Shown here: positions 6,013 to 27,807 of the stretch, piece after piece
Numbering within the stretch: position 1 is the stretch's first letter
How the letters are laid out: each line of letters opens with the position of its first letter
From: Saccharopolyspora aridisoli
Lineage (GTDB): Bacteria > Actinomycetota > Actinomycetes > Mycobacteriales > Pseudonocardiaceae
NCBI RefSeq assembly: GCF_004348445.1
Contig: NZ_SMKV01000027.1
Span: forward strand, 1 to 64,000
Length of the DNA: 64,000 nt
Reading direction: 5' to 3'
Program-made: the position numbers and the translations under genes
Notes under the pieces: model-generated
Told to the model about the DNA's origin: nothing
Seen by the model: the letters and a program-made list of their open reading frames with translations, nothing else
The model's database searches: none

Positions 6013-6023
6013 GAGTGGCAGAG

Positions 6024-7438: not shown

Positions 7439-7450
7439 CCACGGCCGTGG
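7439..7450. promoter_or_regulatory. 12-bp palindrome CCACGGCCGTGG upstream of the MFS gene
   Basis: A perfect 12-bp palindrome lies 30 bases upstream of the MFS start. The position is right for an operator, but no regulator gene is adjacent. The rest of 7410-7768 shows no clear feature and must hold the divergent promoters of the MFS gene and ung. Confidence 0.35.
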
Positions 7451-8443: not shown

Positions 8444-8496
8444 GCTTCGGAAGCCGTCAGTGGTCATGCCGCTCCGCGGCGCCGGAGCGGAAATTT

Positions 8497-8616
8497 CATG
8501 GCCACTGCGCGGCGCTACGGCTGTCCTCCGCAGAGGACGTCTGAGGACCCGCGGCGGTGCGGGTCGGGAGGCGAGGCGCGGACGAAGCGCCTGCGGCGCT
8601 TGCCCGACGTGCTCGC
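8497..8616. repeat. diverged intergenic repeat, copy A
   Basis: This stretch shares long blocks with 31425-31545: the words CCACTGCGCGGCG, GTCCTC, GACGTCT, GGTGCGGGT and GCTTGCC-GACGTG occur in the same order. The opening word also has an imperfect upstream echo at 8461-8480. It sits between convergent ung and rpmB and has no convincing reading frame. It may belong to a dispersed non-coding family of this genome. Confidence 0.6.
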
Positions 8617-8637
8617 TCCCTGGCCCTCAACAGCAGA

Positions 8638-8666
8638 AAGCCCCGAGGACAACCACCTCGGGGCTT
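8638..8666 (-). terminator. rpmB terminator
   Basis: The perfect 11-bp stem AAGCCCCGAGG (8638-8648) with CCTCGGGGCTT (8656-8666) and a 7-base loop lies 18 bases after the rpmB stop. Read on the minus strand it is followed by TTTC. It may also stop ung transcripts. Confidence 0.85.
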
Positions 8667-8684
8667 CTAGCTGAGAACATTTCC

Positions 8685-8876
8685 TCAGCCGCGGGCGACC
8701 TTGCCTGCCTTCATGCAGGAGGTGCACACGTTCATGCGCTTGCGCTGGGACAGACCGATCTTGGCGTGCACGGTCTGAATGTTCGGGTTCCACCGGCGCT
8801 TGGTCTTCCGGTGGGAGTGCGAGACCGAGTTGCCGAAGCCTGGTCCCTTGCCACAGACGTCGCAGACGGCAGCCAC
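8685..8876 (-). CDS. rpmB: 50S ribosomal protein L28, zinc-binding form
   Basis: A 63-residue L28 of the large ribosomal subunit. Two CxxC pairs (C5/C8 and C51/C54) mark the zinc-binding form; many actinobacteria also carry a cysteine-free paralogue used in zinc starvation. The GTG at 8876 gives [11 protein letters not shown] and has AAGGGG (8885-8890) at 8-base spacing. The other in-frame GTG at 8885 overlaps that site and would leave no room for ribosome binding, so the shorter form is preferred. Expressed divergently from the DAK2 kinase gene. Confidence 0.95.
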
Positions 8877-9167
8877 GTCAGACACCCCTTACTTTGCTTG
8901 ACGGTTACAGCGATGAGAGCTCCGCTGTCGTGCCACGCCGAATCGGAGAGGCATTTCGGGAGCGCTTCCTGCTCACCGCCGTGCGGCGGACTGAGCCCGG
9001 AGAACCCGGTCGCCCGGGGTCATCGCCACCCTGGGACCCGATGAGTCTAGCCCACGGCACCCGGCTGCTCCCGCGCCGGGGGCCGATGTGCGGCGGAGCA
9101 CCGTGAGGGCGCCGCCTGCGGATAGTCTCGGCTGCGACCGATCCTAACGTGCGTGGGAGGTTCCCGG

Positions 9168-10727
9168 GTGTTGCGGACGCTGAACGCGGCGACTGCCCGC
9201 CGCTGGGCGGACCTGGCCATGTCGGCGCTGTCGGCCGAGCGCGAGGCGATCGACCGGATCAACGTCTACCCGGTCGCCGACGGCGACACCGGGACGAACC
9301 TGCTGCAGACCATGCGCGCGGCGGTGCGCACCCTCGACGAGGCGGCCCCGGACACGCTCGGCGGCGTGTTCGCCGCGCTGGCCAAAGGTGCCCTCGGCGG
9401 TGCCTGCGGGAACTCAGGGCTGCTGTTGTCGCAGGCCATCAGGGGTGTGGCCGAGCAGCTGCGGGACGCCGAGACCGCGGACGGCGTGGCGTGGCGGGAG
9501 GCACTGCGGCGAGCCGATGAGCTGGCCCGGCAGGCCGTCGCCGAGCCGCAGGAGGGAACCGTGCTGTCGGTGCTGCGCGCGGCAGCCCGCGGCGCGCGGA
9601 GCACCGAAGACCTGGCCGAGGTGGTGCGCTCCTCGACGCGCGCGGCGATCGACGCGCTGGCCGCGACACCTGCGCAGCTGCCGGTGCTGTCGGAGGCGGG
9701 CGTCGTCGACGCGGGTGGACGAGGTCTGGTGGTCCTGCTCGACGCGCTGCACGCGGTGGTCGTCGACGGCGAGTGGCTGGCCCCGAACTCGCCGGTGCCT
9801 GCGGAGTCGGATCTGCTGGAGCACGAGTCGAGCTTCGACTACGAGGTCATGTACCTGCTGGCCGACACCGACGCGGAGCGGGCCGAGTCGCTGCGCGGGC
9901 GGCTCGGAGGGCTGGGCGACTGCGTGTCGGTCGTCGGTGACGGGGTCGACGCCTGGGCGGTCCACGTGCACTGCGACGACATCGGAGGAGCGATCGAGGC
10001 GGGCGTGGAAACCGGCCGGGTGCACCGGATCAAGGTGACCCGCTTCGCCGATCAGCAGGCCGCCTACGCCCGCGACGTGGCGGTGCTGGCGTGCGTGCCG
10101 GGGGACGTGCTCGGCGAGGTCTTCGCCGCCGAGGGAGCCGATGTGCTGGTCACCGGCTCGATCCCGGTCCCGGCGGAGTTGCGGGAGGCGATCGTCGGCA
10201 CCGGTGCGGGTCACGTGGTCGTGCTGCCCAACGACCTGGACACTGCCCTGGTCGTGGAGCGGGCGGTGGCCGGTCGGTCCGGCGAGGGGCCCGAGGTCGT
10301 GGTGGTGCCGACCGCTTCGCCGGTGCAGGGGCTGGCCGCGCTGGCCGTGCACGATCCGCATCGGCGCCGCGCCGACGACCAGGTCGCGATGGCCGAGGCC
10401 GCTGCGGCGACCCGCCGGGGTGAGCTCTACGTCGCCGACGCCGAAGCGCTGACCTGGGTCGGTCGGTGCCGTCCCGGCGACATCCTCGGTCTGATCGACG
10501 GGGAGGTCGTGCTCATCGGCGAAGACCTGACCACCACCGCGCTGGAGCTGCTGACCAGGATGCTCACCGCCGGTGGCGAGCTGTTCACCGCGCTCATCGG
10601 CGACAACACGCCGCCCGAGCTGCCCGGGGAGCTGTCGGCTCACCTGCGTCGCGCCCATCCCGAGGTGGAGATGGCCCGCTATCCGGCGGGCGCCTTGGAC
10701 TCACTGCTGCTGATCGGCATCGAGTAG
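9168..10727 (+). CDS. DAK2-domain fatty-acid-kinase-like protein (FakA/YloV family)
   Basis: A 519-residue protein with an N-terminal DAK2 (DhaL-like) domain, marked by VYPVADGDTGTNLLQTM (Mg/ATP-binding aspartates) and GACGNSGLLLSQ, a middle region, and a C-terminal DegV-like half. The arrangement is that of FakA, the ATP-binding subunit that phosphorylates fatty acids held by a FakB partner; no FakB gene is nearby. The GTG at 9168 follows GGGAGG at 9156-9161 with 6-base spacing. The gene lies upstream of recG, as in mycobacteria and Bacillus. Confidence 0.85.
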   Translation: MLRTLNAATARRWADLAMSALSAEREAIDRINVYPVADGDTGTNLLQTMRAAVRTLDEAAPDTLGGVFAALAKGALGGACGNSGLLLSQAIRGVAEQLRDAETADGVAWREALRRADELARQAVAEPQEGTVLSVLRAAARGARSTEDLAEVVRSSTRAAIDALAATPAQLPVLSEAGVVDAGGRGLVVLLDALHAVVVDGEWLAPNSPVPAESDLLEHESSFDYEVMYLLADTDAERAESLRGRLGGLGDCVSVVGDGVDAWAVHVHCDDIGGAIEAGVETGRVHRIKVTRFADQQAAYARDVAVLACVPGDVLGEVFAAEGADVLVTGSIPVPAELREAIVGTGAGHVVVLPNDLDTALVVERAVAGRSGEGPEVVVVPTASPVQGLAALAVHDPHRRRADDQVAMAEAAAATRRGELYVADAEALTWVGRCRPGDILGLIDGEVVLIGEDLTTTALELLTRMLTAGGELFTALIGDNTPPELPGELSAHLRRAHPEVEMARYPAGALDSLLLIGIE

Positions 10728-10802
10728 TTCCGTCCCGGGAGCGGGGAACTTCCCGTTTCTCCGAGCTCGTCGCACCCGGTTCCGGGATGAATCTGATGGT
10801 GC

Positions 10803-10817
10803 TAGTGTCATTGTCAC
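10803..10817 (+). promoter_or_regulatory. -10 box and palindrome GTGNCANTGNCAC before the YtrA-type regulator
   Basis: TAGTGT at 10803-10808 resembles an actinobacterial -10 box and sits 10 bases before the ATG at 10819, which has no ribosome binding site. The message is therefore probably leaderless. Overlapping it, 10805-10817 forms the palindrome GTGTCATTGTCAC (three variable positions). It fits an autoregulatory operator for the GntR protein encoded directly downstream. Confidence 0.5.
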
Positions 10818-10818
10818 C

Positions 10819-11166
10819 ATGTTGCTCAGGTTGGACATCGAGGACGGGCAGCCGCTGCACGAGCAGGCCGCCGATGCGATCCGGCGCGCCATCGCCGACG
10901 GGGAGGCCGATCCGGGTGACCGGCTCCCACCCGCCCGCGACCTGGCCGACGCGATGAGCATCAACGCCAACACCGTGCTGCGAGCGCTGCGCGAACTGCG
11001 CGCCGAGGGACTGCTGGAGTTCCGCCGCGGGCGAGGGGTCACCGTGCTGAGGCGTCCCGACCCGGAGTCGGGGCTGCGCGCTCAGCTGCGCGACCTGGTG
11101 GCCGAGGTGCGGCGCCGGGGCTTCACCACCGCCGACCTGACGCGGTGGATCGAGGAGGAATCGTGA
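10819..11166 (+). CDS. YtrA-subfamily GntR transcriptional regulator
   Basis: A 115-residue regulator with a GntR winged helix (about residues 10-80, with PGDRLPPARDLADAMSINANTVLRALREL) and only a short C-terminal helical tail. That size marks the YtrA subfamily, which usually controls membrane-protein or ABC-transporter operons. The start appears leaderless. Its stop overlaps the start of the next membrane protein by 4 bases (GTGA), so the two are co-translated and the downstream DUF1648 proteins are its likely targets. Confidence 0.9.
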   Translation: MLLRLDIEDGQPLHEQAADAIRRAIADGEADPGDRLPPARDLADAMSINANTVLRALRELRAEGLLEFRRGRGVTVLRRPDPESGLRAQLRDLVAEVRRRGFTTADLTRWIEEES

Positions 11167-12228: not shown

Positions 12229-12687
12229 GTGCGAATCCGGAGCCGGTACGTGTGGTTGATCGCCGGCTGGACGCTGTCCGTGGCCGTGCTGATGATCGCC
12301 GTGCCGCTGCTGGTGGGCGCGAGGCTGCCCGAACCCATCGCCGTGGAGTGGACCTCCACCGGATCACCCGAGAGTTCGAGCTCGCTGCGCGATTTCCTGG
12401 TCGGCAAGCTGGTGTGGTGGCTGGTGGTCGCCGCGGTGTGGAGCGCGTTGGTGCTGCGCGGGGTGTTGCGCGAGCGCGCCACCGCGCTGGCCGCGGCCGT
12501 GATGGCGGTGTTCGGCTGGGTGATGCTGGGGACCGTCGTGCTGACCACGATCGCCAACCTGGACGCGCCGGACTTCCGCGACGCCACCGAACTGTCCGGC
12601 GAGGGCTGGCTGGTGCTCGGCGCGCTTCCCGTGGCGTGGGCCGGCTGGCGGGTCGGCGGCCGGGAAACCGTCGGTGCCGCCGAGTAG
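12229..12687 (+). CDS. DUF1648 small membrane protein
   Basis: A 152-residue membrane protein with about four helices and the DUF1648 signature LPEPIAVEWTSTGSPESS after helix 1. It looks like a short relative of the preceding protein, so the pair may come from duplication. The GTG at 12229 follows GGGAG at 12218-12222; the in-frame ATG at 12214 is less well placed. It lies 110 bases after the first DUF1648 gene and 39 bases before recG, so the regulator's operon may read into recG. Confidence 0.75.
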   Translation: MRIRSRYVWLIAGWTLSVAVLMIAVPLLVGARLPEPIAVEWTSTGSPESSSSLRDFLVGKLVWWLVVAAVWSALVLRGVLRERATALAAAVMAVFGWVMLGTVVLTTIANLDAPDFRDATELSGEGWLVLGALPVAWAGWRVGGRETVGAAE

Positions 12688-12726
12688 CTCGCGGTGCCAA
12701 CTGAGTACGCAGGCGGAGGACTTGCA

Positions 12727-14985
12727 GTGACCACATTGGACGCGAAGCTCGACCGGTTGTTGGGTGCCAAGACCGGCAAGGCGCTCGAGTCTGCGCTCGG
12801 CCTGGTCACCGTCGGCGATCTGCTGCGGCACTACCCCCGCCGCTACGCCGAGCGCGGTGAGCTGACCGCGATCGCCGGTCTGGAGCTCGGCGAGCACGCG
12901 ACCGTTCTGGCCAAGGTCGAGCGGGTCACCAAGCGCACCATGAAGTCCCGCCGCGGCACGATCGTCGAGGCCCGCATCACCGACGGGCACCGGTCTCTGT
13001 CGTGCACGTTCTTCAACCAGGCGTGGCGAGAGCGGGAGCTGATCCCCGGCAAGCGCGGCATGTTCGCGGGCAAGGTCACCGCGTTCCGCGAGCAGCTCCA
13101 GCTCGCGCACCCCGAATACCAGCTCTTCGACCCGGAGGCCACCGACGTCGGCGCCGTCGCCGAGGAGTTCGCGAGCGCGCTGCTGCCGGTCTACCCGTCG
13201 GCGCAGGGGCTGCCGTCGTGGTCGATCGCGCGCTGCGTGAAGCAGGTGCTGGACGTGTGGGACGGGACCGACGACCCGCTGCCGACCGAGCTGCGCGAGC
13301 GCCTGGGCATGTCGGTGCTGGAGGACGCGCTGCGCAAGATCCACCTGCCGCAGAACTTCGGCGAGGTCGCGGCAGCGCAGGAACGGCTCAAGTGGGACGA
13401 GGCGCTGGCCGTGCAGCTCACGCTGGCGCAGCGGCGCAGCAACGCGAAATCGCACCCGGCGCCGGTCTGCGAGCGCCGCGACGACGGGGTGCGGGTGGCC
13501 TTCGACGAGCGGATGCCGTTCGAGCTGACCAGGGGTCAGCGAGAGATCGGCGAGCAGATCGCCACCGACCTCGGCACCGAGCACCCGATGAACCGCCTGG
13601 TCCAGGGCGAGGTGGGCAGCGGCAAGACGGTGGTCGCGCTGCGCGCGATGCTGCAGGTGGTCGACGCCGGGCGGCAGGCGGCGATGCTCGCGCCCACCGA
13701 GGTGCTGGCCGCGCAGCACGCGCGTTCGCTGCGGGAACTGCTCGGCGACCTGGCCATGGCCGGGGAGCTGGGCGGGGCGGAGAACGCGACGCGGGTGACG
13801 CTGCTGACCGGTTCGCTCAACACCGCGCAGCGGCGCGGAGCGCTGCTGGAGGCGGCCTCCGGTGAGGCGGGGATCGTCGTCGGCACGCACGCGTTGATCC
13901 AGGACGAGGTGTCCTTCGCCGATCTCGGGTTGGTCGTGGTCGATGAGCAGCACCGCTTCGGCGTTGAGCAGCGCGATGCCCTGCGCGCCCGTGCGGGTGA
14001 GGAGACCGCGCCGCACGTGCTGGTGATGACGGCGACGCCGATCCCGCGCACGGTGGCGATGACGGTCTACGGAGATCTGGAGACCTCGGCGCTGCGCGAA
14101 CTACCGCAGGGCCGTTCCCCGATCAGCACCAGCGTGGTGCCGGTGGCGGAGAAGCCCGCTTGGCTGGACCGGGCGTGGGCGCGGGTCCACGAGGAGGTCG
14201 CCGCCGGGCACCAGGTGTACGTGGTGTGCCCGCGCATCGGTGACGACGAGGAGACCTCGGGCAAGGGCAAGGGCAAGGGCAAGGGCAAGAAGTCCAAGAG
14301 GTCCGAGGAGCCCACTGTGGACGACGGCGACGGCGAGGAGCCGCCGCCGGACGACGGTGGTGAGCAGCGGCGTCCGCCGGTCGCGGTGATCGACGTGGCC
14401 GAGCAGTTGGCGGCCGGGCCGCTGTCCGGTCTGCGGCTGGGGATCTTGCACGGCAGGCTGGCCGCCGACGACAAGGACGCGGTGATGCGCGCCTTCGCCG
14501 CGGGCGAGCTGGACGTGCTGGTGGCGACCACGGTGATCGAGGTGGGCGTCAACGTTCCCAACGCGACCGTCATGGTGATCATGGACGCGGACCGGTTCGG
14601 CGTGTCGCAGCTGCACCAGCTGCGCGGCCGGGTCGGCCGGGGCAGCGCACCGGGGTTGTGCCTGCTGGTCACCGAGGCCATGGGCGGCACCACGACGCGT
14701 GAGCGGCTGGACGCGGTCGCCTCCACCACCGACGGTTTCGAGCTGGCGCGGCTGGACCTGGAGCTGCGCAGGGAGGGCGACGTCCTGGGTGCGGCGCAGT
14801 CGGGCCGCAAGTCCGGGTTGAAGATGCTCTCGTTGTTGCGCGACGAGGACGTGATCGCTCAGGCGCGCGAGGAGGCGGACCGCTTCGTCGCCGCCGATCC
14901 CGCTCTGCGGGAGCACCCGGGGTTGGCGCGGATGGTGGCCGAGGTCGTCGATGAAGAGCGCGCGGAGTACCTCGAGAAGTCGTGA
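12727..14985 (+). CDS. recG: ATP-dependent DNA helicase RecG
   Basis: A 752-residue superfamily 2 helicase that remodels stalled forks and branched DNA. It has the wedge/OB domain in the first 200 residues, Walker A GEVGSGKT at about 295, DEQH at about 405, and the C-terminal GRVGRG motif. The GTG at 12727 follows GGAGGA at 12715-12720. Unusually, about 40 charged low-complexity residues, beginning with a Gly-Lys repeat at residue 512, interrupt the second helicase domain between VYVVCPRIGDD and the LGILHGRL strand. The reading frame remains intact. Confidence 0.95.
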   Translation: MTTLDAKLDRLLGAKTGKALESALGLVTVGDLLRHYPRRYAERGELTAIAGLELGEHATVLAKVERVTKRTMKSRRGTIVEARITDGHRSLSCTFFNQAWRERELIPGKRGMFAGKVTAFREQLQLAHPEYQLFDPEATDVGAVAEEFASALLPVYPSAQGLPSWSIARCVKQVLDVWDGTDDPLPTELRERLGMSVLEDALRKIHLPQNFGEVAAAQERLKWDEALAVQLTLAQRRSNAKSHPAPVCERRDDGVRVAFDERMPFELTRGQREIGEQIATDLGTEHPMNRLVQGEVGSGKTVVALRAMLQVVDAGRQAAMLAPTEVLAAQHARSLRELLGDLAMAGELGGAENATRVTLLTGSLNTAQRRGALLEAASGEAGIVVGTHALIQDEVSFADLGLVVVDEQHRFGVEQRDALRARAGEETAPHVLVMTATPIPRTVAMTVYGDLETSALRELPQGRSPISTSVVPVAEKPAWLDRAWARVHEEVAAGHQVYVVCPRIGDDEETSGKGKGKGKGKKSKRSEEPTVDDGDGEEPPPDDGGEQRRPPVAVIDVAEQLAAGPLSGLRLGILHGRLAADDKDAVMRAFAAGELDVLVATTVIEVGVNVPNATVMVIMDADRFGVSQLHQLRGRVGRGSAPGLCLLVTEAMGGTTTRERLDAVASTTDGFELARLDLELRREGDVLGAAQSGRKSGLKMLSLLRDEDVIAQAREEADRFVAADPALREHPGLARMVAEVVDEERAEYLEKS
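14260..14289 (+). repeat. (GGCAAG)5 hexanucleotide repeat inside recG
   Basis: Five perfect in-frame copies of GGCAAG encode alternating Gly-Lys in a surface loop of RecG's second helicase domain. Copy number change by slippage would keep the frame and only lengthen or shorten the loop. Confidence 0.9.
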
Positions 14986-18865: not shown

Positions 18866-19387
18866 ATGCGGAAATGGTTCTCGTCGAGCGCGTGGGTGCT
18901 CGTGGCCGCGGGATTGGTCGCGGGGAGCGGTGTGGCCACCGCCGACGTGCAGCAGGTCGACTGGCACAACGCCGAATTCGAGGTCCCGCAGGTGGGATCT
19001 TGCCCGCGGCAGGTGGTCTCGTTCACCGACGGAGCCGGTGAGGCCGGAGACCGGGTCTACCGCTTCACCCCGGACAAGCCGATCGGCTACGCCGACGTCA
19101 CCGGCGAAGGGCTCGAGGACGCCCTGATGCTGATCGAGTGCGGGCCTCGGGACTCCGAGTACTCCCGGGCGCTGATCGGCATGACCACGGACCCGGGCGG
19201 CACCGTGCCGCGCACGTTGGGAACCGTCGTCAGCCCGCCCGTGTGGACCCAGGTGCCGGAGGAGTTCCAGGTGTTCCACCACGACATCGCCGTGTGGATC
19301 AACGACTTCGACACCGGCCAGGGCCACACCGAGCACTACCGATGGGCCTCCTCGGCCCAGGCGTTCGTCCGCATCGACGGTCAGTAA
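18866..19387 (+). CDS. secreted hypothetical protein
   Basis: A 173-residue protein with an N-terminal signal peptide: basic MRKW, a hydrophobic core, and a likely cleavage after the ATA of VATADVQQ, around residue 27. The mature part has two cysteines (GSCPRQ and IECGPR), enough for one disulfide, and is rich in aromatic and acidic residues. I recognise no family. The ATG at 18866 follows a GGGGG stretch. The last 7 bases overlap the end of the convergent aldolase gene. Nothing ties it functionally to the catabolic block. Confidence 0.7.
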   Translation: MRKWFSSSAWVLVAAGLVAGSGVATADVQQVDWHNAEFEVPQVGSCPRQVVSFTDGAGEAGDRVYRFTPDKPIGYADVTGEGLEDALMLIECGPRDSEYSRALIGMTTDPGGTVPRTLGTVVSPPVWTQVPEEFQVFHHDIAVWINDFDTGQGHTEHYRWASSAQAFVRIDGQ

Positions 19388-20283
19388 CCGGCCTCCGACC
19401 AGGACGCCAGGACGCCGGTGACCTGTTCGCGCTGCTGCGAGGACAGGCCACCGGCCGGTGGCCGCACCCCTGCGCCGCACAGCCCCTGCTGGGCCAGGGC
19501 CTCCTTGACCACCGCGACGTTGCAGGCGGTCGCGTCCTCGGCCCGCATCTTCTCGAACGGGGCGATCAGCGACCACAACCGCAGGATCTCGGCCTGGTCG
19601 CCGCTGCGCAGGGCCGCTAGGTAGTCCAGCGAGAGCCTCGGCGCGACGTTGACCCCGCCCGAGGTGAAACCGGCCGCGCCCAGTGGCCAGAACGACGGCG
19701 CCCACCGCTCGGCGAGCCCGCAGGACCATGCCACCCGGTCGGTGCCGAGCGCGGTGCAGATCTCGCCGAAGCGCAGCGGATCGGCGACCGCGTACTTGAT
19801 GCCGACCACGTTGGGGCACGCGTCGAACAGCGAGCCCAGCGCCTCGGCGTCGATGCGGGAATCCTTGACGTAGAGCACGAAACCGAGGCCTGGCGCGGAC
19901 CGAGCGATCAGCCGGTTGTAGGCCGCCCACCCGGCCACCGACTGGTGCGGGTGGACCGGCTGGTGCAGCATCGCCAGCGGCGCACCGAGCTGCTGCACCG
20001 CGACCGCCATGTCCTGGGCGGTGGCGATGTCGTAGCCGATGCCGGGCATCACCACCGAGTCGCCTGCGGCGGCCATCGTGACCTCGTTGGCCCGCTGCCA
20101 CTCCTGGCGGGACAGCGCGTAGAACTCGCTGGTGTTGCCGTTGGGCGTGATCACGTGGACCCCTGCCGCACCCATCCGCGCCACGATCGCCTCGTAGCCG
20201 GACCAGTCGGGTGAGCCCGTGCCGTCGAACGGGGTCACGGTGATCGCGGTGACCCCGCGCAGCGCATCGACGCTGGTGGACAT
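19381..20283 (-). CDS. DapA-family aldolase or dehydratase of sugar acids
   Basis: A 300-residue TIM-barrel protein of the dihydrodipicolinate synthase/N-acetylneuraminate lyase family. The Schiff-base lysine is K163 in VVGIKYA, the partner tyrosine is Y138 in GFVLYVKD, and the carboxylate-binding loop is PNGNTSEF. Relatives cleave or dehydrate 2-keto-3-deoxy sugar acids to pyruvate plus an aldehyde, or to a ketoglutarate semialdehyde. It lies 17 bases downstream of a pentonate-type dehydratase on the same strand, so it probably acts on that enzyme's product. The ATG at 20283 has GGAGGCGAGG upstream. Confidence 0.88.
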   Translation of the reverse strand: MSTSVDALRGVTAITVTPFDGTGSPDWSGYEAIVARMGAAGVHVITPNGNTSEFYALSRQEWQRANEVTMAAAGDSVVMPGIGYDIATAQDMAVAVQQLGAPLAMLHQPVHPHQSVAGWAAYNRLIARSAPGLGFVLYVKDSRIDAEALGSLFDACPNVVGIKYAVADPLRFGEICTALGTDRVAWSCGLAERWAPSFWPLGAAGFTSGGVNVAPRLSLDYLAALRSGDQAEILRLWSLIAPFEKMRAEDATACNVAVVKEALAQQGLCGAGVRPPAGGLSSQQREQVTGVLASWSEAGY

Positions 20284-20300
20284 CCTCGCCTCCGCTCGCG

Positions 20301-22031
20301 TCAGTGGATCGCCGGTTCGGGCGCGCCGCCGGTGCCTTCGAGGAAGTCGAAGTCGCAGCCCTTGTCGGCCTGGGTGATGTGCTGGGCGAACAACTTGCCG
20401 TAGCCGCGCGAGAAGACCGGCTCCGGCGGCGTCCACTCGGTGCGCCTGCGCTCCAGCTCCTCGGCGTCGACGTGCAGGTCGAGCCGACGTCCGGGCACGT
20501 CGAGCTCGACGACGTCGCCGTCGCGCACCAGTGCCAGCGGCCCGCCCGCGACCGACTCCGGCGCCACGTGCAAGACGCAGGTGCCGTAGCTGGTGCCGCT
20601 CATCCGCGCGTCGGAGACCCGGACCATGTCCGATACTCCTCGCCGCAGCAGCTTCTTCGGGATCGGCAGCATGCCCCACTCCGGCATGCCCGGCCCGCCC
20701 AGCGGACCGGCGCCGCGCAGGATCAGCACCGAGCTCTCGTCGACGTCGAGGTCTTCGGCGTCGATGCGGGCCTCCATGTCGTCGTAGGAGTCGAACACGA
20801 TCGCCCTGCCCCGGTGCCGCAGCAGTTCCGGGCTGGCCGCGCTGGTCTTGATGACGCAGCCGTCGGGCGCCAGCGAACCGCGCAGCACCGCCAGCCCGCC
20901 CTGTTCGGTCAGCGGGTCGTCGCGGCGGCGGATCACGTCGGTGTCGTGGATCTCGGCGCCTTCGAGGTTCTCGCCGAGCGTGCGGCCGTTGACGGTGATC
21001 GTGTCGCGGTGCAGCAGCTCGCCGAGCTCGGCCATCAGCCCGCGCAGCCCGCCCGCGTCGTAGAAGTCCTCCATCAGGTACTCGCCGGAGGGCCGGATGT
21101 TGGCCAGCGCTGGGACTGCGCGGGACCAGTCGTCGAAGACCTCCAGCGGCAGGTCGACCTCGGCACGACCGGCCATCGCCACCAGGTGGATCACCGCGTT
21201 GGTGGAGCCGCCCATCGCCATCACCACCGCGATGGCGTTCTCGAACGCCTCCCGGGTCAAGATCTCCCGCGGCGTGACGTCCTCCCAGACGAGGTCGACG
21301 ATCCGGCGTCCGGTGGCAACCGCCAGCTGCGGGTGGTGGGAGAACGCGGCGGGGACCGAGGAACCGCCGGTCAGCGTCAGCCCCAGCGCCTCGGCGGCAG
21401 CGGTCATCGTCGAGGCGGTGCCCATCGTCATGCAGTGGCCGGGTGAACGGGCGATGCCGTCCTCGATCTCGCCCCACTCCTGCTCGCCGAGGGTGCCCGC
21501 GCGGCGCTGCGCCCAGTACTTCCAGGTGTCCGAGCCGCTGCCGAGCGTCACGCCCTTCCAGCGGCCCTTGAGCATCGGGCCGGCGGGCAGGAAGATCGAG
21601 GGCACGTCGACGCTGGTCGCGCCCATGATCAAGCCCGGTGTGGTCTTGTCGCAGCCGCCCATCAGGACGCAGCCGTCGATGGGGTAGGAGCGCAGCAGCT
21701 CCTCGGTCTCCATCGCGAGCATGTTCCGGTAGAGCATCGTGGTCGGCTTCTGGAACGGCTCGGACAGCGACATCGCCGGCAGCTCCAGCGGGAAGCCCCC
21801 CGCCTGGTGAACGCCCCGCTTGACGGTCTCGGCGCGCTCCCGGAAGTGCGTGTGGCACGGGTTGATGTCGCTCCAGGTGTTGACGATGCCGATCACCGGC
21901 TTGCCCGAGCAGTCCTCGGCGTCGAAACCCATCTGCTTGGCGCGGGACTTGTGCCCGAACGAGCGCATGGTGTCCACGCCGAACCAGCGGTGACTGCGCA
22001 GCTGCTCGGCGGTGAGCCTGGGACGGGTCAT
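20301..22031 (-). CDS. IlvD/Edd-family sugar-acid dehydratase (pentonate type)
   Basis: A 576-residue Fe-S dehydratase converting an aldonate to a 2-keto-3-deoxy acid. Likely cluster ligands are C59 (DINPCHTH), C127 (GGCDKTTP) and C200 (SPGHCMTMG). The VSDARMSGTSYG motif carries the probable catalytic serine. Length and these positions agree with rhizobial L-arabinonate dehydratase better than with E. coli Edd or IlvD, so an L-arabinonate, D-xylonate or galactonate-like substrate is likely. The first gene of a two-gene operon with the aldolase; the operator at 22121-22136 lies 90 bases upstream. Confidence 0.9.
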   Translation of the reverse strand: MTRPRLTAEQLRSHRWFGVDTMRSFGHKSRAKQMGFDAEDCSGKPVIGIVNTWSDINPCHTHFRERAETVKRGVHQAGGFPLELPAMSLSEPFQKPTTMLYRNMLAMETEELLRSYPIDGCVLMGGCDKTTPGLIMGATSVDVPSIFLPAGPMLKGRWKGVTLGSGSDTWKYWAQRRAGTLGEQEWGEIEDGIARSPGHCMTMGTASTMTAAAEALGLTLTGGSSVPAAFSHHPQLAVATGRRIVDLVWEDVTPREILTREAFENAIAVVMAMGGSTNAVIHLVAMAGRAEVDLPLEVFDDWSRAVPALANIRPSGEYLMEDFYDAGGLRGLMAELGELLHRDTITVNGRTLGENLEGAEIHDTDVIRRRDDPLTEQGGLAVLRGSLAPDGCVIKTSAASPELLRHRGRAIVFDSYDDMEARIDAEDLDVDESSVLILRGAGPLGGPGMPEWGMLPIPKKLLRRGVSDMVRVSDARMSGTSYGTCVLHVAPESVAGGPLALVRDGDVVELDVPGRRLDLHVDAEELERRRTEWTPPEPVFSRGYGKLFAQHITQADKGCDFDFLEGTGGAPEPAIH

Positions 22032-22120
22032 GCCGCGAGCCCCCTTCCGGTGTCTGGAACTTCGTCGTTCGCGTGACTTGACTGGTCGATGTCGTCGAGC
22101 GGTCCGGATGTTGCGGCTGC

Positions 22121-22136
22121 GGTATATGATATCTCA
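22121..22136. promoter_or_regulatory. GntR regulon operator, site 1
   Basis: GGTATATGATATCTCA stands out as AT-rich in a GC-rich intergenic region, 27 bases before the RraA-family start and 90 bases before the divergent dehydratase start. Its core ATGATATCTCA is identical to the site at 27794-27804 and similar to the two sites beside the GntR gene. Confidence 0.7.
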
Positions 22137-22163
22137 GAGATCCGACGATGCGAAGGGTCGAAG

Positions 22164-22907
22164 ATGGTGGACACCTCGGTCAAGACTCCCGATCCGCTGC
22201 CGGAGGGCGTCCTGCTGGCGCTGCGCCGCGCCAGCACGGCGACCATCACCACGCAGCTGCTCTCGCGCGGTCTGCGCAACCAGTTCATGCAGGGCCTGCG
22301 GGCGCTGAACCCGGCGCAGGTGAACATGGTCGGCGTCGCGTTCACCCTGCGCTACATCCCGGCGCGGGAGGACGTCGACGTGCTGTCGGTGTTCCAGGAC
22401 TACGACCACCCGCAGCGCAAAGCCGTCGAATCCGTGGGCCGTGGCGAGGTGCTGGTCATCGACTCGCGCGGGCAGCAGCGAGCCGCCTCGCTCGGCCACA
22501 TCCTGGCGACCCGGCTGCTGCACCGCGGTTGCGCGGGCGTGGTGACCGACGGCTCGGTGCGCGACTCGGACGGCTTCGCGACGCTGGAGATGCCGACGTT
22601 CGCGATGAACCCGTCCGCCAACACCAACCTGATCCAGCACCACGCGGTGGACATGCAGGTGCCCATCGGCTGCGGCGAGGTCGCGGTCTACCCGGGAGAC
22701 GTGCTCGTCGGCGACTCCGACGGCGTCGTGTGCCTCCCACGTCACTTGGCTGAGGAGGTCGCCGAAGCCGCTGCGGCGCAGGAGCACCTCGAAGCGTTCG
22801 TCCTCTCCAAAGTGGAATCAGGTCGTCCGCTGCGCGGCACGTACCCGCCGGACGAGGCCACCCGCGCCGAGTACGAGGCGTGGGCCGCCGAAAACCCCCT
22901 GTTGTGA
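22164..22907 (+). CDS. RraA/HMG-aldolase family protein
   Basis: A 247-residue protein of the RraA-like fold shared by 4-hydroxy-4-methyl-2-oxoglutarate aldolase, oxaloacetate decarboxylase and the RNase E inhibitor RraA. The metal/substrate site is seen in VVTDGSVRDSDG, and the family's closing strand is VLVGDSDGVVCLP. In this setting an aldolase or decarboxylase of a keto acid is much more likely than RNase regulation. The ATG at 22164 follows GAAGGG; an upstream in-frame extension would cross the operator. An LDH2-type gene follows on the same strand. Confidence 0.85.
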   Translation: MVDTSVKTPDPLPEGVLLALRRASTATITTQLLSRGLRNQFMQGLRALNPAQVNMVGVAFTLRYIPAREDVDVLSVFQDYDHPQRKAVESVGRGEVLVIDSRGQQRAASLGHILATRLLHRGCAGVVTDGSVRDSDGFATLEMPTFAMNPSANTNLIQHHAVDMQVPIGCGEVAVYPGDVLVGDSDGVVCLPRHLAEEVAEAAAAQEHLEAFVLSKVESGRPLRGTYPPDEATRAEYEAWAAENPLL

Positions 22908-22945
22908 ACCTCTTGCGGTCGGACGCAGGTGCGAGGAGGAACGAG

Positions 22946-24013
22946 GTGCGGGTTTCCGCCGAGGCAGTGCGCACGCTGATCATCGACGTCCTCGCCGCGT
23001 GGGGCATGGACCGCGACCTGGCCGAGATCACCGCCGAGGTGATGGTCGAGACGGACCTGGCGGGCATCGACTCGCACGGCGTGTCGATGCTCATGACCTA
23101 CGAGCAGTTCCGCGCCGAGGGCAGGATCGACCTGCGCGCCAGGCCTGCGGTGGTGCGCGAGAACGCCGCATCGGCGCTGGTCGACGCCCACAGCGGCATC
23201 GGGCATCCGGCGGGGGAGTTCGCCATGCGGATGGCCATCGACAAGGCGAAGGCCGGCACGGTCGGCGTGGTCTCGGTGGTCAACTCGCACCACTTCGGCG
23301 CGGCGGGTCACTACGCCGAGATGGCCGCGCGGCAGGGGCTGGTCGGACTGGTCACCAGCTCGGCGAACCTGCCCGCCTCGCCGCCGACGGGATCGGTGGT
23401 GCCGATGCTGGCCACCAACCCGATCGCCTTCGCAGCGCCCGCCCGGCGCAATCCCCACTTCCTGCTCGACATCGCCACCACCACGGCCGCCGTCAACAAG
23501 GTCAAGGTCTACGACTTCCACGGCGAACCCCTCCCGGAAGGCTGGGTGGTCGACGACGCCGCCCGCCCGGTGACCGACGCGCACCGGGCTCTCGGCATCC
23601 TCCGCAACGACGACGTCGGCGGGCTGACACCGCTCGGTGGAACACCGGAAATGGGTTCGCACAAGGGCTACGGGCTGAGCGTGATGGCCCACGTCCTGGC
23701 CGCCACGCTGTGCGGTGGCGCGTTCCCGGCGAGCCGGAAACGCGAGGACCCCCACAACATCGGGCACTTCTTCCTCGCTCTCGACCCGAGCGGGTTCCGC
23801 CCACCAGGCGAGTTCGAAGACGACCTCGACGATGCCATCGACCGGCTCCACGCGACACCACCGCTGAACCCGGACGAACGCGTCCTGGTGGCGGGAGATC
23901 CGCAGGCCGCCTCACGGGAAGTGCGTCGTCGGGAGGGGATTCCGATGCCGGACACCCTCGTCGAGCAGCTGTGCGGTGTCGCCGAACGCGCTGGAGTCGA
24001 GTTAGCTCTCTAA
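22946..24013 (+). CDS. LDH2/malate dehydrogenase family NAD(P)H oxidoreductase
   Basis: A 355-residue member of the Ldh2 family, which interconverts 2-keto and 2-hydroxy acids (malate, ureidoglycolate, 2,3-diketogulonate, sulfolactate and others). Typical segments are GIDSHGVSML, the VVNSHHFGAAGHYAEMA active-site region and GSHKGYGLSVM near the C-terminus. The GTG at 22946 follows GAGGAGGA; a GTG at 22904 overlapping the previous stop is an alternative. Substrate is unknown; a keto acid from the same pathway is inferred. Its 3' end overlaps the convergent ThDP gene by 12 bases. Confidence 0.87.
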   Translation: MRVSAEAVRTLIIDVLAAWGMDRDLAEITAEVMVETDLAGIDSHGVSMLMTYEQFRAEGRIDLRARPAVVRENAASALVDAHSGIGHPAGEFAMRMAIDKAKAGTVGVVSVVNSHHFGAAGHYAEMAARQGLVGLVTSSANLPASPPTGSVVPMLATNPIAFAAPARRNPHFLLDIATTTAAVNKVKVYDFHGEPLPEGWVVDDAARPVTDAHRALGILRNDDVGGLTPLGGTPEMGSHKGYGLSVMAHVLAATLCGGAFPASRKREDPHNIGHFFLALDPSGFRPPGEFEDDLDDAIDRLHATPPLNPDERVLVAGDPQAASREVRRREGIPMPDTLVEQLCGVAERAGVELAL

Positions 24014-25555
24014 GAAGTCCGCCAGTCGTGCGTCGGCGGTGAGCACGTCGGGATCGATGCGCACGTCCAGCACGCACGGCCGGTCCTCGGCCAGCGCGCT
24101 CCGGATCGCTGGTTCCAGCTGTTCGCGCGTGTCGACGGTGTGCCCGGCGGCGCCGAGACTTCGTGCCCAACCAGCGAAGTCCACCGCGCCGATGTTCACC
24201 GCGGACATCGGGCGGTTGCTCTTGACCTGGTGCAGCGCGATCGTGCCGTACAAGCCGTTCTGGAACACCACCACGACCACGTGTGCCCTGTGCCGCACGG
24301 CCGTCTCGATCTCCTGGCCGGTCATCAGCGCGCCGCCGTCGCCGACCATCGCGAGCACGGTGCGCTCCGGCGCGACGAGCTTCGCCGCCACCGCCGAGGG
24401 GACCGCGTAGCCCATCGCCCCGTTGCACGGGCCGAGCTGCGTGCGCGGTTCGGTGAAACCCCAGTAGCGGTGCGCGAATCCGGAGAAGTTGCCCGCATCG
24501 TTGGTGACCACCGCGTCGCGCGGAGCGAGTCGCCGCAGTTCTCGCACCACCTCGGTCGGGTGCGGGGCGGAGCTGGCGTCGAGCTCCGGTGGGGTCATGA
24601 ACTCGCGCACCGCCTCGTGGGCGGTCGACCAGTCACGTCGTCGACCCGGGGTCCTCGCGCGCAACTCGGCGAGCGCCGATGGCGGCAGCCGCAGGTGGTC
24701 CTGCTCGGGCAGCGGGAACCTGAACCCCTGGCTGGTCACCTCGTCGAGCCGCATGCCCACCGACAACACCACGTCGGCGTTCTCGAGCGCCTTGAGCTGC
24801 GCGTCCGGCACCGACAGGCCGAGGTGTCCGGCGAAGTGCGGGTGGTCCTCGGGGAAGGCGTCCTGGCGCCGGAAACCCGTGTACACCGCGAGCCCGAGCT
24901 CCTCGGCGGTCGCGACGAGTTCGCGGTGGCTCACGGGATCACGTGCTCCGGTGATCACCACGGGACTGCGCGCGGCAGCGAGCCGTTCGGCCGCAGCGGC
25001 GACGTCGGGAACCTCCGCGGGCAGCGGCTCGGGAACCGGCAGCGGGCCGTGGAAGGGCTCGTCCCAGAAGTCACTGGGCACCGCCACCACCGCCGGACCT
25101 GGGCGCGGGCCGGTCGCCTGCGCGAACGCCTCGGCGACCACGCCCGGGACCTCGGCGGCGGAGGCGGGCTGCGCTGACCAGTTGGCCAGCGGGGCGAACA
25201 TCGCCGCGAGGTCGACCTCCTGGAAGCTCTCCCTGCCCAGCTTGCTGGAGGGGACCTGGCCGAGCAGCACCACCATCGGTGTGTGGTCCTGCCGGGCGGT
25301 GTGCACGCCGATGGACAGGTTCGTCGCGCCGGGACCTCGACTGGCCATCGCCACGGCGGGGACACCGCGCAGTTTGCCGCACGCTTCGGCCATGAACGCC
25401 GCGCCGCTCTCGTGGCGCGTGGAAACCAGCGTCAGCTCCGGGGTTTCGGCGAACGCGTCGAGCAACCCCAGGAACGATTCCCCGGGCACGGTGAAGCCGT
25501 GTTCGACTCCCGCGTCGGCGAGCACGCGGGCCACGGCCTGGGCGACTGTACGCAT
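24002..25555 (-). CDS. thiamine diphosphate-dependent enzyme, acetolactate-synthase-like
   Basis: A 517-residue ThDP enzyme with the usual three domains. The catalytic glutamate is seen in VSTRHESGAAFMAEA; the ThDP/Mg motif begins at MVGDGGALMTGQE and ends at VVFQNGLYG. It is shorter than housekeeping acetolactate synthases (about 570-600 residues) and no small subunit is nearby, so a decarboxylase or carboligase of a 2-keto acid in the sugar-acid pathway is more likely than branched-chain amino acid synthesis. The ATG at 25555 has GAGGAG upstream. It is divergent from the GntR regulator with operator-like sites between them. Confidence 0.85.
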   Translation of the reverse strand: MRTVAQAVARVLADAGVEHGFTVPGESFLGLLDAFAETPELTLVSTRHESGAAFMAEACGKLRGVPAVAMASRGPGATNLSIGVHTARQDHTPMVVLLGQVPSSKLGRESFQEVDLAAMFAPLANWSAQPASAAEVPGVVAEAFAQATGPRPGPAVVAVPSDFWDEPFHGPLPVPEPLPAEVPDVAAAAERLAAARSPVVITGARDPVSHRELVATAEELGLAVYTGFRRQDAFPEDHPHFAGHLGLSVPDAQLKALENADVVLSVGMRLDEVTSQGFRFPLPEQDHLRLPPSALAELRARTPGRRRDWSTAHEAVREFMTPPELDASSAPHPTEVVRELRRLAPRDAVVTNDAGNFSGFAHRYWGFTEPRTQLGPCNGAMGYAVPSAVAAKLVAPERTVLAMVGDGGALMTGQEIETAVRHRAHVVVVVFQNGLYGTIALHQVKSNRPMSAVNIGAVDFAGWARSLGAAGHTVDTREQLEPAIRSALAEDRPCVLDVRIDPDVLTADARLADFLES

Positions 25556-25587
25556 GAGCTCCTCGCAGCTTCCGATCCTTAGGCGTT

Positions 25588-25604
25588 GGTATATCATACA
25601 TCAA
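25588..25604. promoter_or_regulatory. GntR regulon operator, site 2
   Basis: TGGTATATCATACATCA-like sequence, 33 bases upstream of the ThDP-enzyme start. Read on the minus strand it is TGATGTATGATATACC, which matches the minus-strand reading of site 1 (TGAGATATCATATACC) at 13 of 16 positions. Confidence 0.65.
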
Positions 25605-25655
25605 GCCGGTGGAGAGCTGCGGAATCCGCAGGTCGTCCGGGTGCGTCGGACCACC

Positions 25656-25667
25656 TTGATATATCAT
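25656..25667. promoter_or_regulatory. GntR regulon operator, site 3, overlapping the regulator's promoter
   Basis: TTGATATATCAT contains the perfect 10-bp palindrome TGATATATCA at 25657-25666. TATCAT at 25662-25667 also fits a -10 box 7 bases before the GTG at 25675. Binding here would block the regulator's own transcription. Confidence 0.7.
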
Positions 25668-25674
25668 CGGAGGC

Positions 25675-26367
25675 GTGACACAGCTGGCCAGTGATTCCTC
25701 CGGACTGCGCCCCCTCAGCGGGCCCGCCAGCCGCACCGACCTGGTCGCGGACTCCATCCGCAACGCGATCCTGGCCGGTGAGCTGCGGCCAGGCGAGACG
25801 CTGGTCGAGCGGCGCCTGTCGGAACTGCTCGGCGTGTCGAAGACGCCCGTGCGCGAAGCCCTGATCGGCATGGCCCACACCGGTCTGGTCACGGTGGTGC
25901 CGAACAAGGGCATCACCGTCCGCAAGCTCTCGCTCGAAGACGTCCGCAAGGTCTACGAAGTCCGCAGGCTGCTCGAACCGTGGGCCGCCAAGATGACCAC
26001 CCGCAGCGGCTCACCCGACGTGGTCCGTCGTGCGCAGGACGCGCTCAACGAGGCCGCCGGGCTGCTCAGCGCGGGCGACAACCACGCGCTGAGCATGGCC
26101 AACCGCCGCTTCCACCGGTCGCTGTACTCCGGCTGCGGCAACGCCCTGGTCATCGACCAGCTCGACGACCTGCAGGACCTCACCGCCCTGGGCGTGGTGA
26201 ACCTGCTGTGGGACCGCTGGCCCACCTGGCGCGAGGAATTCGTCGAGCACGCCGAGATCCTGGCGGCCGTCACCGACGGCAACGCCGACGAAGCCGAACG
26301 CCTCGTGAGCAAGCACGTCCAGCAGTCCCTGACCAACCTCGAATCGGCCGAGGAGGCCGACTCCTGA
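25675..26367 (+). CDS. FadR/FCD-family GntR transcriptional regulator
   Basis: A 230-residue regulator with a GntR winged helix (residues about 22-85: AILAGELRPGETLVERRLSELLGVSKTPVREAL) and a C-terminal FCD ligand domain with metal-type residues (NRRFHRSL, FVEHAEILAAV, SKHV). FCD regulators bind small acids such as sugar acids or lactate. GGAGG lies only one base from the GTG start, while a -10-like TATCAT sits 7 bases upstream, so a leaderless message is likely. It probably represses the surrounding catabolic genes and itself through the TGATATNTCA-type sites. Confidence 0.92.
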   Translation: MTQLASDSSGLRPLSGPASRTDLVADSIRNAILAGELRPGETLVERRLSELLGVSKTPVREALIGMAHTGLVTVVPNKGITVRKLSLEDVRKVYEVRRLLEPWAAKMTTRSGSPDVVRRAQDALNEAAGLLSAGDNHALSMANRRFHRSLYSGCGNALVIDQLDDLQDLTALGVVNLLWDRWPTWREEFVEHAEILAAVTDGNADEAERLVSKHVQQSLTNLESAEEADS

Positions 26368-26384
26368 AGGCTTCTCCGAGCGCG

Positions 26385-26422
26385 CGCGGCGGTGCCGTGA
26401 GGGCCGCTCAGGCACCGCCGCG
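26385..26422. terminator. hairpin terminator between GntR regulator and transporter
   Basis: A 12-bp perfect stem, CGCGGCGGTGCC (26385-26396) and GGCACCGCCGCG (26411-26422), has a 14-base loop and lies between the convergent genes. Confidence 0.85.
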
Positions 26423-26437
26423 AGGCACGAGTCGTGC

Positions 26438-27772
26438 TCAGAACATCGGCTTCTGCTCGTCCAAGGGTTTGACCTGCACCACGAAGGCGTAGAAGAACGC
26501 GCCCAGCACGCACATCGCCCCGGCGAACACCAGCGGCCACACGTAAGCGAACTGCCCGGTGCCCAGCAGGAAGCCGATCACGATGGGCCCGATGATCCCG
26601 CCCAGCTGCGAACCGAAGTTCTGCACGCCGGTCAGCGACGCCACGTTGCGCGGCGTCGGGGCCACGTCCGCCGGGAGCGACAGCAAAGCACCCGTGGACA
26701 CCGCCGCGCTGCAGTAGGAGGCGGTGAGGAACACCAGCGCCCACGCGGGACTCGGTGCGATCGAGGCCAGCGCGATCGTCGACGCACCGACCATGCCGAT
26801 CACCAGCGGGATCTTGCGGGCCATCGGCAGCGGGGTTCCGCGGCGCACCAGCCAGTCGGAGAACAACCCGCCCAGCCAGTTCGCCACCATCGCCGCCAGG
26901 CCCGGGATCGCGCCGAACAGGCCCAGTTCCAGCAACGAGAAGCCCTGCTGGTTGACCAGGAAGTCCGGGTACCAGGTGATGAAGAAGTAGATGATCACAC
27001 CGCGGCAGGTGTAGCCGGCCACCAGCGCCCAGGTCGTCGAGTAGCGGAACAGGTCGCGCCACTTCATCGGCTGCTTGCCCGCGTCGCCGAGCTCCTTCTC
27101 CTCGGTGCGGCCGCCGCCCTGCTCGATGTAGTCCACCTCGGCCTGGTTGGCCCACTTCTGCTGGCGCGGCGAGCGGTAGATCAGCAACCACGCCACGACC
27201 CAGACCAGGCCCAACGCTCCGGTCACCACGAACGAGCCGCGCCAGCCGACGAGCGCGATCAGCAACGTCACCAGCGGGACCGACAGCGCGCTGCCGAACT
27301 CCGAGCCGGTGTCGAAGATGGACGACGCGAACGCCCGCTCCTTGCGCGGGAACCACTCCGACACCACCCGGGCGTTGGCCGACTGCACCGGGGCCTCGCC
27401 GACGCCCAGCACCAGCCGGCAGCCGATCACCCCGGCGAACCCCCTGGTGAGCGCGGTGGCCGCGGTGCCGATCGACCACCACACGACCGCGATCGCGTAG
27501 AGCGCTCGCGGCCCGTAGCGGTCGACGAGCCAGCCTCCCGGGAGCTGGAACAACGCGTAGGTCCAGAAGAACGAAGACAGCATGACGCCCTTGAGCTCGT
27601 CGGAGAACTGGAGCTCCTGCTGCATGGAATCGCTTGCGACGCTGAGGTTCGCGCGGTCGATGTAGGCGATGGCGGTGGCCAGGGCGACCAGGACGACCAT
27701 GAACCACCGGATCTGGGACCGCTTGCCGGTGGACCGCTTCGGGGCCGCAGTGGACATGGCGGGTTCGTGCAT
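26438..27772 (-). CDS. ACS-family MFS transporter for sugar acids (glucarate/galactonate permease-like)
   Basis: A 444-residue, about 12-helix major facilitator of the anion:cation symporter family. The N-terminal AIAYIDRANLSVASDSM run is the family mark seen in ExuT, GudP and DgoT, and LFQLPGGWLVDRYGPR follows in the next loop. Imports of this family are hexuronates, aldarates and aldonates, which fits the dehydratase-aldolase neighbours. The ATG at 27772 is preceded by GGGGTGG; the ATG at 27757 is a possible later start. The conserved operator word sits 22 bases upstream. Confidence 0.9.
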   Translation of the reverse strand: MHEPAMSTAAPKRSTGKRSQIRWFMVVLVALATAIAYIDRANLSVASDSMQQELQFSDELKGVMLSSFFWTYALFQLPGGWLVDRYGPRALYAIAVVWWSIGTAATALTRGFAGVIGCRLVLGVGEAPVQSANARVVSEWFPRKERAFASSIFDTGSEFGSALSVPLVTLLIALVGWRGSFVVTGALGLVWVVAWLLIYRSPRQQKWANQAEVDYIEQGGGRTEEKELGDAGKQPMKWRDLFRYSTTWALVAGYTCRGVIIYFFITWYPDFLVNQQGFSLLELGLFGAIPGLAAMVANWLGGLFSDWLVRRGTPLPMARKIPLVIGMVGASTIALASIAPSPAWALVFLTASYCSAAVSTGALLSLPADVAPTPRNVASLTGVQNFGSQLGGIIGPIVIGFLLGTGQFAYVWPLVFAGAMCVLGAFFYAFVVQVKPLDEQKPMF

Positions 27773-27793
27773 GCAACCACCCCGTCGTGACGC

Positions 27794-27807
27794 ATGATAT
27801 CTCATAT
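27794..27807. promoter_or_regulatory. GntR regulon operator, site 4
   Basis: ATGATATCTCATAT lies 22 bases upstream of the transporter start. Its first 11 bases are identical to those of site 1 at 22126-22136, 5.7 kb away, tying the transporter to the same regulon. Confidence 0.7.

Follow-up and report, generated by a model that had tools for sequence, protein, structure and literature searches.

A block of seven genes in Saccharopolyspora aridisoli is probably a self-contained module for sugar-acid utilization, kept repressed by its own GntR-type regulator. It lies in the 64,000-nucleotide stretch, positions 1 to 64,000 of contig NZ_SMKV01000027.1 (C20 within this analysis; genome of 6.0 Mb), that is referred to here as the window. 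A probability of about 0.6 was assigned to this reading, in which an RraA-like protein, a DapA-family enzyme or both would most likely convert a 2-keto-3-deoxy acid to alpha-ketoglutaric semialdehyde. The block is flanked by genes resembling those for pyruvate carboxylase and for a HelD helicase (identified by eye from sequence), and contains, in order, genes for DapA and an IlvD/Edd-family dehydratase (DHAD) on the minus strand, RraA and an LDH2-family dehydrogenase on the plus strand, a thiamine diphosphate (ThDP)-dependent enzyme on the minus strand, the GntR protein on the plus strand and a major facilitator superfamily (MFS) transporter on the minus strand. From their spacing, DHAD and DapA are predicted to form one operon with DapA as the second gene. 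The start codons of the LDH2, ThDP and MFS genes were chosen by us, with ribosome-site-like sequence guiding the likely starts. The genes and four operator-like sites are as follows.

19381..20283, minus strand: DapA/DHDPS-family enzyme (PF00701, 99 bits; KdgD-model scores below cut-off; 4ur7 alignment)
20301..22031, minus strand: DHAD, IlvD/Edd-family dehydratase of the L-arabinonate dehydratase type (NF009559, 971 bits; structures 8ej0 and 5j83)
22126..22136, plus strand: operator-like site 1, ATGATATCTCA, between the putative divergent DHAD-DapA and RraA-LDH2 operons
22164..22907, plus strand: RraA-like protein, NF006093 family (PF03737, 118 bits; NF006093, 312 bits; neighbourhoods of relatives)
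22946..24013 (open reading frame opens at 22880), plus strand: LDH2-family 2-hydroxyacid dehydrogenase (PF02615, 347 bits)
24002..25555 (open reading frame opens at 25597), minus strand: ThDP-dependent enzyme of the acetolactate-synthase superfamily with a shortened central domain (family scans, alignment)
25587..25597, minus strand: operator-like site 2, ATGATATACCA, before the ThDP gene
25657..25667, minus strand: operator-like site 3, ATGATATATCA, before the GntR gene
25675..26367, plus strand: FCD-type GntR regulator, proposed autoregulated repressor (PF00392, 62 bits; PF07729, 84 bits)
26438..27772 (open reading frame opens at 27805), minus strand: MFS transporter, best match a D-galactonate transporter model (PF07690; TIGR00893, 309 bits)
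27794..27804, plus strand: operator-like site 4, ATGATATCTCA, before the transporter gene

The regulatory part of this reading is carried by the four sites, all of which match ATGATATMYCA. Measured to the likely start codons, site 1 lies 27 bp from RraA and 94 bp from DHAD, site 2 lies 31 bp from the ThDP gene, site 3 lies 7 bp from the GntR gene and site 4 lies 21 bp from the transporter gene. A first-pass annotation of this DNA had described an AT-rich word at four places, each close before a gene of the block, with the first and last copies sharing 11 bases; both statements were borne out, the identical sites 1 and 4 being 5,668 bp apart. In the whole genome, ATGATATMYCA was found four times, 4/4 inside the block, and the reversed-pattern control gave 0 matches; ATGATATCTCA was found twice, both times in the block. 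The motif is not, that is, as common elsewhere in the genome as in these promoters, the outcome that had been named in advance as telling against a regulon. When up to 2 mismatches are allowed, the shorter palindromic core TGATATATCA has 6 matches in the window against 1.47 expected, a count reached by 0/100 shuffles; one of the six matches overlaps site 2 and one (32621) sits outside the block. Since ATGATATMYCA was derived from the four sites themselves, the independent tests are other genomes.

In 22 genomes of the genus, ATGATATMYCA has 26 matches, 20 of them in or at the block. These 20 fall in six genomes with an RraA of at least 79% identity (4, 4, 3, 3, 3 and 3 matches), cluster membership in G547, G551 and G559 having been assigned from closeness to the RraA match; the other 6 comprise 2 elsewhere in one of the six genomes and 4 spread over the 16 genomes without a cluster-type RraA. 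The same cluster, with its sites, is present at 92-98% protein identity on a Saccharopolyspora endophytica contig (L083, with the contig coordinates of G547), and the gene order is identical in G025 and G063. Promoter alignments of three species, including the latter two, show the sites as conserved blocks within poorly conserved spacers, above all sites 1 and 4; in site 3, which is also kept, G025 and G063 each have a single change. Three loci of about 20 kb (L033, L034 and L083) contain four TGATATATCA sites each with up to 1 mismatch, where at most 0.01 would be expected and 0/200 simulated sequences, which preserve dinucleotide frequencies on average, reach four. Only broken LDH2, ThDP and MFS pieces are present between pyruvate carboxylase and HelD in G091 (L051, about 8479-10319), and since these remnants occupy the same place, an ancestral block was probably lost there. 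About 320 extra bases, with a duplicated stretch of about 60 bases, were seen between RraA and LDH2 in G025 (L033, about 12378-12739).

Sites were also found beyond the genus. A contig of an unclassified actinomycete metagenome-assembled genome (L078) encodes a smaller version of the module, in which DapA-RraA and DHAD-GntR are on opposite strands, with a GntR protein 58% identical to that of the block, so that a DHAD-DapA-RraA-GntR core recurs. Its 20.7 kb contain just two sites, 33 bp before the DapA open reading frame and 31 bp before that of DHAD, and 0/200 simulations reach two. On an Arthrobacter plasmid (GntR 46%, RraA 71% identical) the only site precedes the annotated start of RraA by 63 bp and is weak by itself, because 18/200 simulations match it, and a Streptomyces locus (L081, GntR 43%) has one site near the probable GntR gene start. 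Scans of L079, L080, L089 and L071 with up to 1 mismatch gave no site. Adjoining the GntR/DHAD genes, L078 (13236-14303) and L081 (1324-2523) encode an unnamed protein that looks similar by eye. In the open PubMed Central literature, no paper was found to pair the motif words with each other or with GntR.

The regulator itself exceeds the cut-offs of both domains that define the FCD subfamily (PF00392, 61.9 bits, cut-off 27; PF07729, 83.8 bits, cut-off 24.3). A local regulon of this FCD-type GntR protein at the four sites is very likely, and the proposal of such a regulon in the first-pass annotation is strongly supported by the genome-wide counts together with the conservation in other species and genera, the binding being predicted from sequence. 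With four conserved sites, the DNA specificity of one FCD-type GntR protein would also be cleanly defined.

The enzymes are consistent with a non-phosphorylative route for breaking down an aldonate-like acid. DHAD scored 971.2 bits against NF009559, the L-arabinonate dehydratase equivalog model (cut-off 882), and its closest solved structures are 8ej0 and 5j83. The best match of the transporter is the D-galactonate transporter model TIGR00893, with 308.7 bits below a cut-off of 395. With the DHAD model passed, a transporter nearest a galactonate model and an FCD regulator, the families support the proposed sugar-acid catabolism well, any particular acid being a prediction.

DapA had been called an aldolase. 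It belongs to the DapA family, and this call was refined in that its best NCBIfam scores go to models of KdgD-type 5-keto-4-deoxyglucarate dehydratases, though below their cut-offs (TIGR03249, 103.1 bits, far under 373.95). Its closest structures are 3e96 and 3d0c, deposited just as dihydrodipicolinate synthase, followed by the keto-deoxy-galactarate dehydratase 4ur7, in alignment with which the catalytic Lys and Tyr and the GxTxE stretch are kept. According to the available part of PMC13398020, KdaD is marked by a Glu; DapA carries Tyr at that position, its LYVKD stretch being aligned to VYNRD in 4ur7. Because this Glu is lacking, the canonical route from L-arabinonate to alpha-ketoglutarate with KdaD, as far as that source defines the enzyme, was ruled out. 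Elsewhere (L160), a DapA relative lies with an oxidoreductase, an SMP-30 lactonase and ABC transporter genes.

The RraA-like protein scored 312 bits against NF006093 (cut-off 208), whose members carry the label "ribonuclease activity regulator RraA" in public records. Its score against the RNase E regulator model NF006875 was 61.3 bits, the cut-off being 136, and that role was ruled out on this score. Models of 4-hydroxy-4-methyl-2-oxoglutarate/4-carboxy-4-hydroxy-2-oxoadipate (HMG/CHA) aldolase were not reached (78.8 of 304.5 bits for TIGR02798; 85.1 of 179 bits for NF006731). Its VRD stretch aligns with that of 3noj, containing the catalytic Arg123 and the metal ligand Asp124 of HMG/CHA aldolase, whose second metal ligand is Glu199. 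When named genomes were searched with aligned RraA sequences, 450 relatives were confirmed, of which the best 80 were all examined, so that the shares given here are those of close relatives; the Arg-Asp pair is present in 80/80. Asp102 is also important in the aldolase, and in its column the relatives have Asp (5), Gly (24), Ser (33) or other residues (18), with His in the protein of the window.

Gene neighbourhoods point to a partnership with DHAD. A DHAD gene is located directly upstream of RraA on the same strand in 30/80 loci (2-159 bp between the aligned stretches) and elsewhere in the locus in 7/80; that of L128, the only upstream DHAD scanned, passes NF009559. Because the two genes adjoin in many bacteria, RraA may be the partner of DHAD, as a 2-keto-3-deoxy-acid dehydratase or aldolase. 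Three of the 30 loci also have an aldehyde dehydrogenase gene close by, in the order DHAD-RraA-aldehyde dehydrogenase in L128 and aldehyde dehydrogenase-DHAD-RraA in L154 and L130, and L079 has RraA-aldehyde dehydrogenase-ThDP, with DapA and an L-2-hydroxyglutarate-oxidase-like gene. The aldehyde dehydrogenase of L128 is closest to the NADP aldehyde dehydrogenases 3v4c and 1eyy, and type III alpha-ketoglutaric semialdehyde dehydrogenases resemble 1eyy; at 1e-40, no NCBIfam model names the aldehyde dehydrogenases of these loci.

According to the available part of its report, FlDet, an RraA-family enzyme of Flavobacterium, turns a 2-keto-3-deoxy-hexarate into alpha-ketoglutaric semialdehyde and is encoded next to an alpha-ketoglutaric semialdehyde dehydrogenase (PMC8563752). 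Besides FlDet, no RraA-family enzyme in sugar-acid catabolism was found among the titles and abstract starts listed from the open PubMed Central literature. By analogy with FlDet, RraA would act after DHAD. Of the whole finding, it is the DHAD-RraA pairing that extends past this genome; it suggests that a family of enzymes has been misnamed, and databases probably call the NF006093 family an RNA-decay regulator wrongly. At slightly short of even odds stands a wider proposal: rather than regulating an RNase, NF006093 would catalyse the second step of a widespread aldonate pathway that is undescribed and proceeds without phosphorylation (DHAD, RraA and a semialdehyde dehydrogenase; Proteobacteria and Actinobacteria). 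In its Saccharopolyspora version this pathway would have gained DapA, LDH2 and the ThDP enzyme, all controlled by a single dedicated GntR regulon. In L077 (about 5813-10906), a second RraA-like gene of this genome is accompanied by a further DapA, an aldehyde dehydrogenase and a gene that resembles ring-cleavage dioxygenases by eye, an arrangement like that of an aromatic-acid pathway.

Among the matches listed, LDH2 is below every NCBIfam cut-off and the ThDP enzyme passes none, coming to 502 of 539 bits for NF006052. Acetolactate synthase proper was ruled out as the role of the ThDP enzyme on its scores against the large subunit models (278.5 of 538 bits for TIGR00118; 259.8 of 551 bits for TIGR02418). 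In glyoxylate carboligase the catalytic ThDP glutamate is replaced by Val, and this role was rejected because the ThDP enzyme keeps the Glu (RHESGA). Twelve sequences were aligned, from the window, L071, L079, L083 and 8 further genomes out of a locus set with 19 others; L036, L043 and L044 have Asp here and the rest Glu. The enzyme lacks about 20 central-domain residues found in relatives from other genomes, a gap common to L033, L034 and L083. Relatives in other genera of the family occur mostly without other genes of the module: among 16 loci (L035-L050), just L035 had another match, to GntR. Searched against plasmids, the ThDP enzyme had no match at 1e-70. LDH2 and ThDP genes are at most about 5 kb apart in L071 and in a Methylobacterium locus (L168). 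A branch from 2-hydroxy acid through 2-keto acid to aldehyde, run by LDH2 and the ThDP enzyme, is a guess.

These data can be assembled into a working model, in which binding and repression by GntR, its ligand, the substrate, the operons and all of the catalysis are predictions. The GntR protein would most likely bind the four TGATATATCA-like palindromes near the starts of the gntR, DHAD-DapA, RraA-LDH2, ThDP and transporter units, and would repress until the imported acid, or the 2-keto-3-deoxy acid derived from it, binds the FCD domain. The MFS protein would bring in an aldonate-like acid, from which DHAD would take off water to give the 2-keto-3-deoxy acid. RraA, DapA or both would then convert this product, most likely by dehydration to alpha-ketoglutaric semialdehyde; the alternative would be an aldol cleavage that yields pyruvate plus an aldehyde. 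Outside the block the genome encodes two aldehyde dehydrogenases, 44-46% identical to that of L079, one of which could oxidize the semialdehyde to alpha-ketoglutarate. LDH2 and the ThDP enzyme would probably form a side branch, in which a 2-hydroxy acid is oxidized and the resulting 2-keto acid is decarboxylated or condensed.

Several observations weigh against this model. The block contains no aldehyde dehydrogenase gene, and neither of the two outside it has a site; among the RraA loci, an aldehyde dehydrogenase at least 40% identical to the query set was found in only 7/80, including L079, itself one source of that set. No DHAD was found in 43/80 RraA loci, 6 of the 43 having less than 1.9 kb upstream. 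Enzymes related to L-arabinonate dehydratase act on several aldonates, and the family membership of DHAD does not settle which sugar acid is used. With up to 1 mismatch, the core TGATATATCA is less specific than ATGATATMYCA, occurring at 13 places in the genome, 4 in the block and 9 elsewhere. No site with up to 1 mismatch was found in a Streptomyces locus (L158, GntR 46%) or in L035 (GntR 54%), where a two-mismatch TGGTATACCA precedes the ThDP gene. RraA and DapA could perform the same step, and the presence of DapA beside RraA, here as well as in L078, is the chief difficulty for the model.

Cleavage rather than dehydration is the strongest rival, unlikely but to be taken seriously: RraA (or DapA) would be an aldolase yielding pyruvate and a short aldehyde from the 2-keto-3-deoxy acid, the ThDP enzyme would join or decarboxylate the products, and LDH2 would interconvert 2-hydroxy and 2-keto acids. 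The retained Arg123 and Asp124 and the lack of an aldehyde dehydrogenase gene in the block agree with this, and in L071 a DHAD-RraA-ThDP set lies with HpaI-aldolase-like, tartronate-semialdehyde reductase (model passed) and hydroxypyruvate-isomerase-like genes; however, this HpaI-like gene would render a second aldolase unnecessary, the Asp102 column is not kept, and DapA scores best, though below cut-off, with KdgD dehydratases. FlDet, the sole RraA-family enzyme found in the literature searched to act on a 2-keto-3-deoxy acid, is in its available description a dehydratase/decarboxylase.

Distinctly unlikely is a division of the block into two pathways that share a regulator, one acid being handled by DHAD-DapA and a different one by RraA-LDH2-ThDP (for instance through 2-hydroxy acid oxidation and decarboxylation). 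The two divergent operons and separate ThDP unit would suit such a division, as would the LDH2 genes near ThDP genes in Methylobacterium, and some loci hold only one part. A Paraburkholderia caribensis plasmid (L167) encodes L-2-hydroxyglutarate oxidase (model passed), a further open reading frame, RraA, MFS, LDH2 and aldehyde dehydrogenase together without DHAD, and in the Streptomyces locus L158 a DapA relative lies with GntR, an aldehyde dehydrogenase, an enolase-type dehydratase and MFS without RraA. Against the division, DHAD directly precedes RraA in the 30 loci described above and DapA and RraA adjoin in L078 with DHAD near; RraA and DHAD therefore often belong together.

That the word is a general core of many FCD-type GntR regulators and marks no specific regulon of this protein is very improbable: the nine core sites elsewhere, with the regions of C45:129544 and C10:34332/34545 also encoding other FCD-like GntR relatives, would fit, but in this genome ATGATATMYCA is confined to the block, and across congeners that lack the block it is rare, with 4 matches in 16 genomes. 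Since these two regions encode such relatives (25-27% identity; L052, L053), the core may be common and the flanking bases may carry specificity, which suggests paralogous regulons with a common TGATATATCA core around L052 and L053. Further genome sites of the TGATATATCA type are at L052 4333 and 4546, L053 5545, L054 4988, 6914 and 10755, and L055 6213; sarcosine/dimethylglycine-dehydrogenase-like genes and an MFS gene were seen near them by eye.

The first-pass annotation had begun the block at 18866. The seven genes stand, but that left edge was corrected. At 18866-19387, convergent with DapA, is a gene for a small protein that is predicted to be secreted; the protein has no Pfam or NCBIfam match and is present in 14/22 genus genomes, and its gene was excluded because 9 of the 14 carriers have no cluster-type RraA and it has no operator-like site.

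How does this module relate to known systems? From the sequence comparisons, it is a predicted variant of non-phosphorylative sugar-acid catabolism not described before. The earlier statement that no described pathway has exactly this set holds in that the set is unusual, and fails as a claim to uniqueness, parts of it recurring in other actinobacteria (L071, L078 and L079). Were the model true, a family that public records present as regulating RNA decay would be a sugar-acid enzyme, and this small, intact, self-regulated block would offer a direct way to the RraA-family reaction.

Weimberg-type and L-arabinonate oxidative pathways consist, in outline, of an IlvD/Edd dehydratase, a second dehydratase such as KdaD and alpha-ketoglutaric semialdehyde dehydrogenase. 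Like these, the block has an L-arabinonate-type IlvD/Edd dehydratase and a DapA-family second enzyme, probably without phosphorylation; unlike them, it has no semialdehyde dehydrogenase, its DapA carries Tyr where KdaD, as partly documented, has Glu, and it has the additional RraA, LDH2 and ThDP genes. In the D-glucarate/galactarate pathway with KdgD, the first dehydratases are GudD/GarD. The DapA of the block is nearest to KdgD models and has 4ur7 as its third-best solved relative, whereas its score is 103 of 374 bits and the block has an aldonate-type enzyme as first dehydratase. With HMG/CHA aldolase (3noj), the RraA-like protein has in common the family and the Arg-Asp pair of all 80 relatives, but it belongs to a separate subfamily, NF006093, is below the aldolase cut-offs and does not keep the Asp102 column. 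The FlDet-FlDeg alginate route of Flavobacterium, as far as the available part of PMC8563752 describes it, differs in that the FlDet substrate is a hexarate from alginate made by no IlvD/Edd enzyme; the likeness to FlDet is drawn from its description. Both systems have an RraA-family enzyme and, in the block by prediction, a 2-keto-3-deoxy acid, and aldehyde dehydrogenase neighbours like that of FlDet are also found in L128 and L079.

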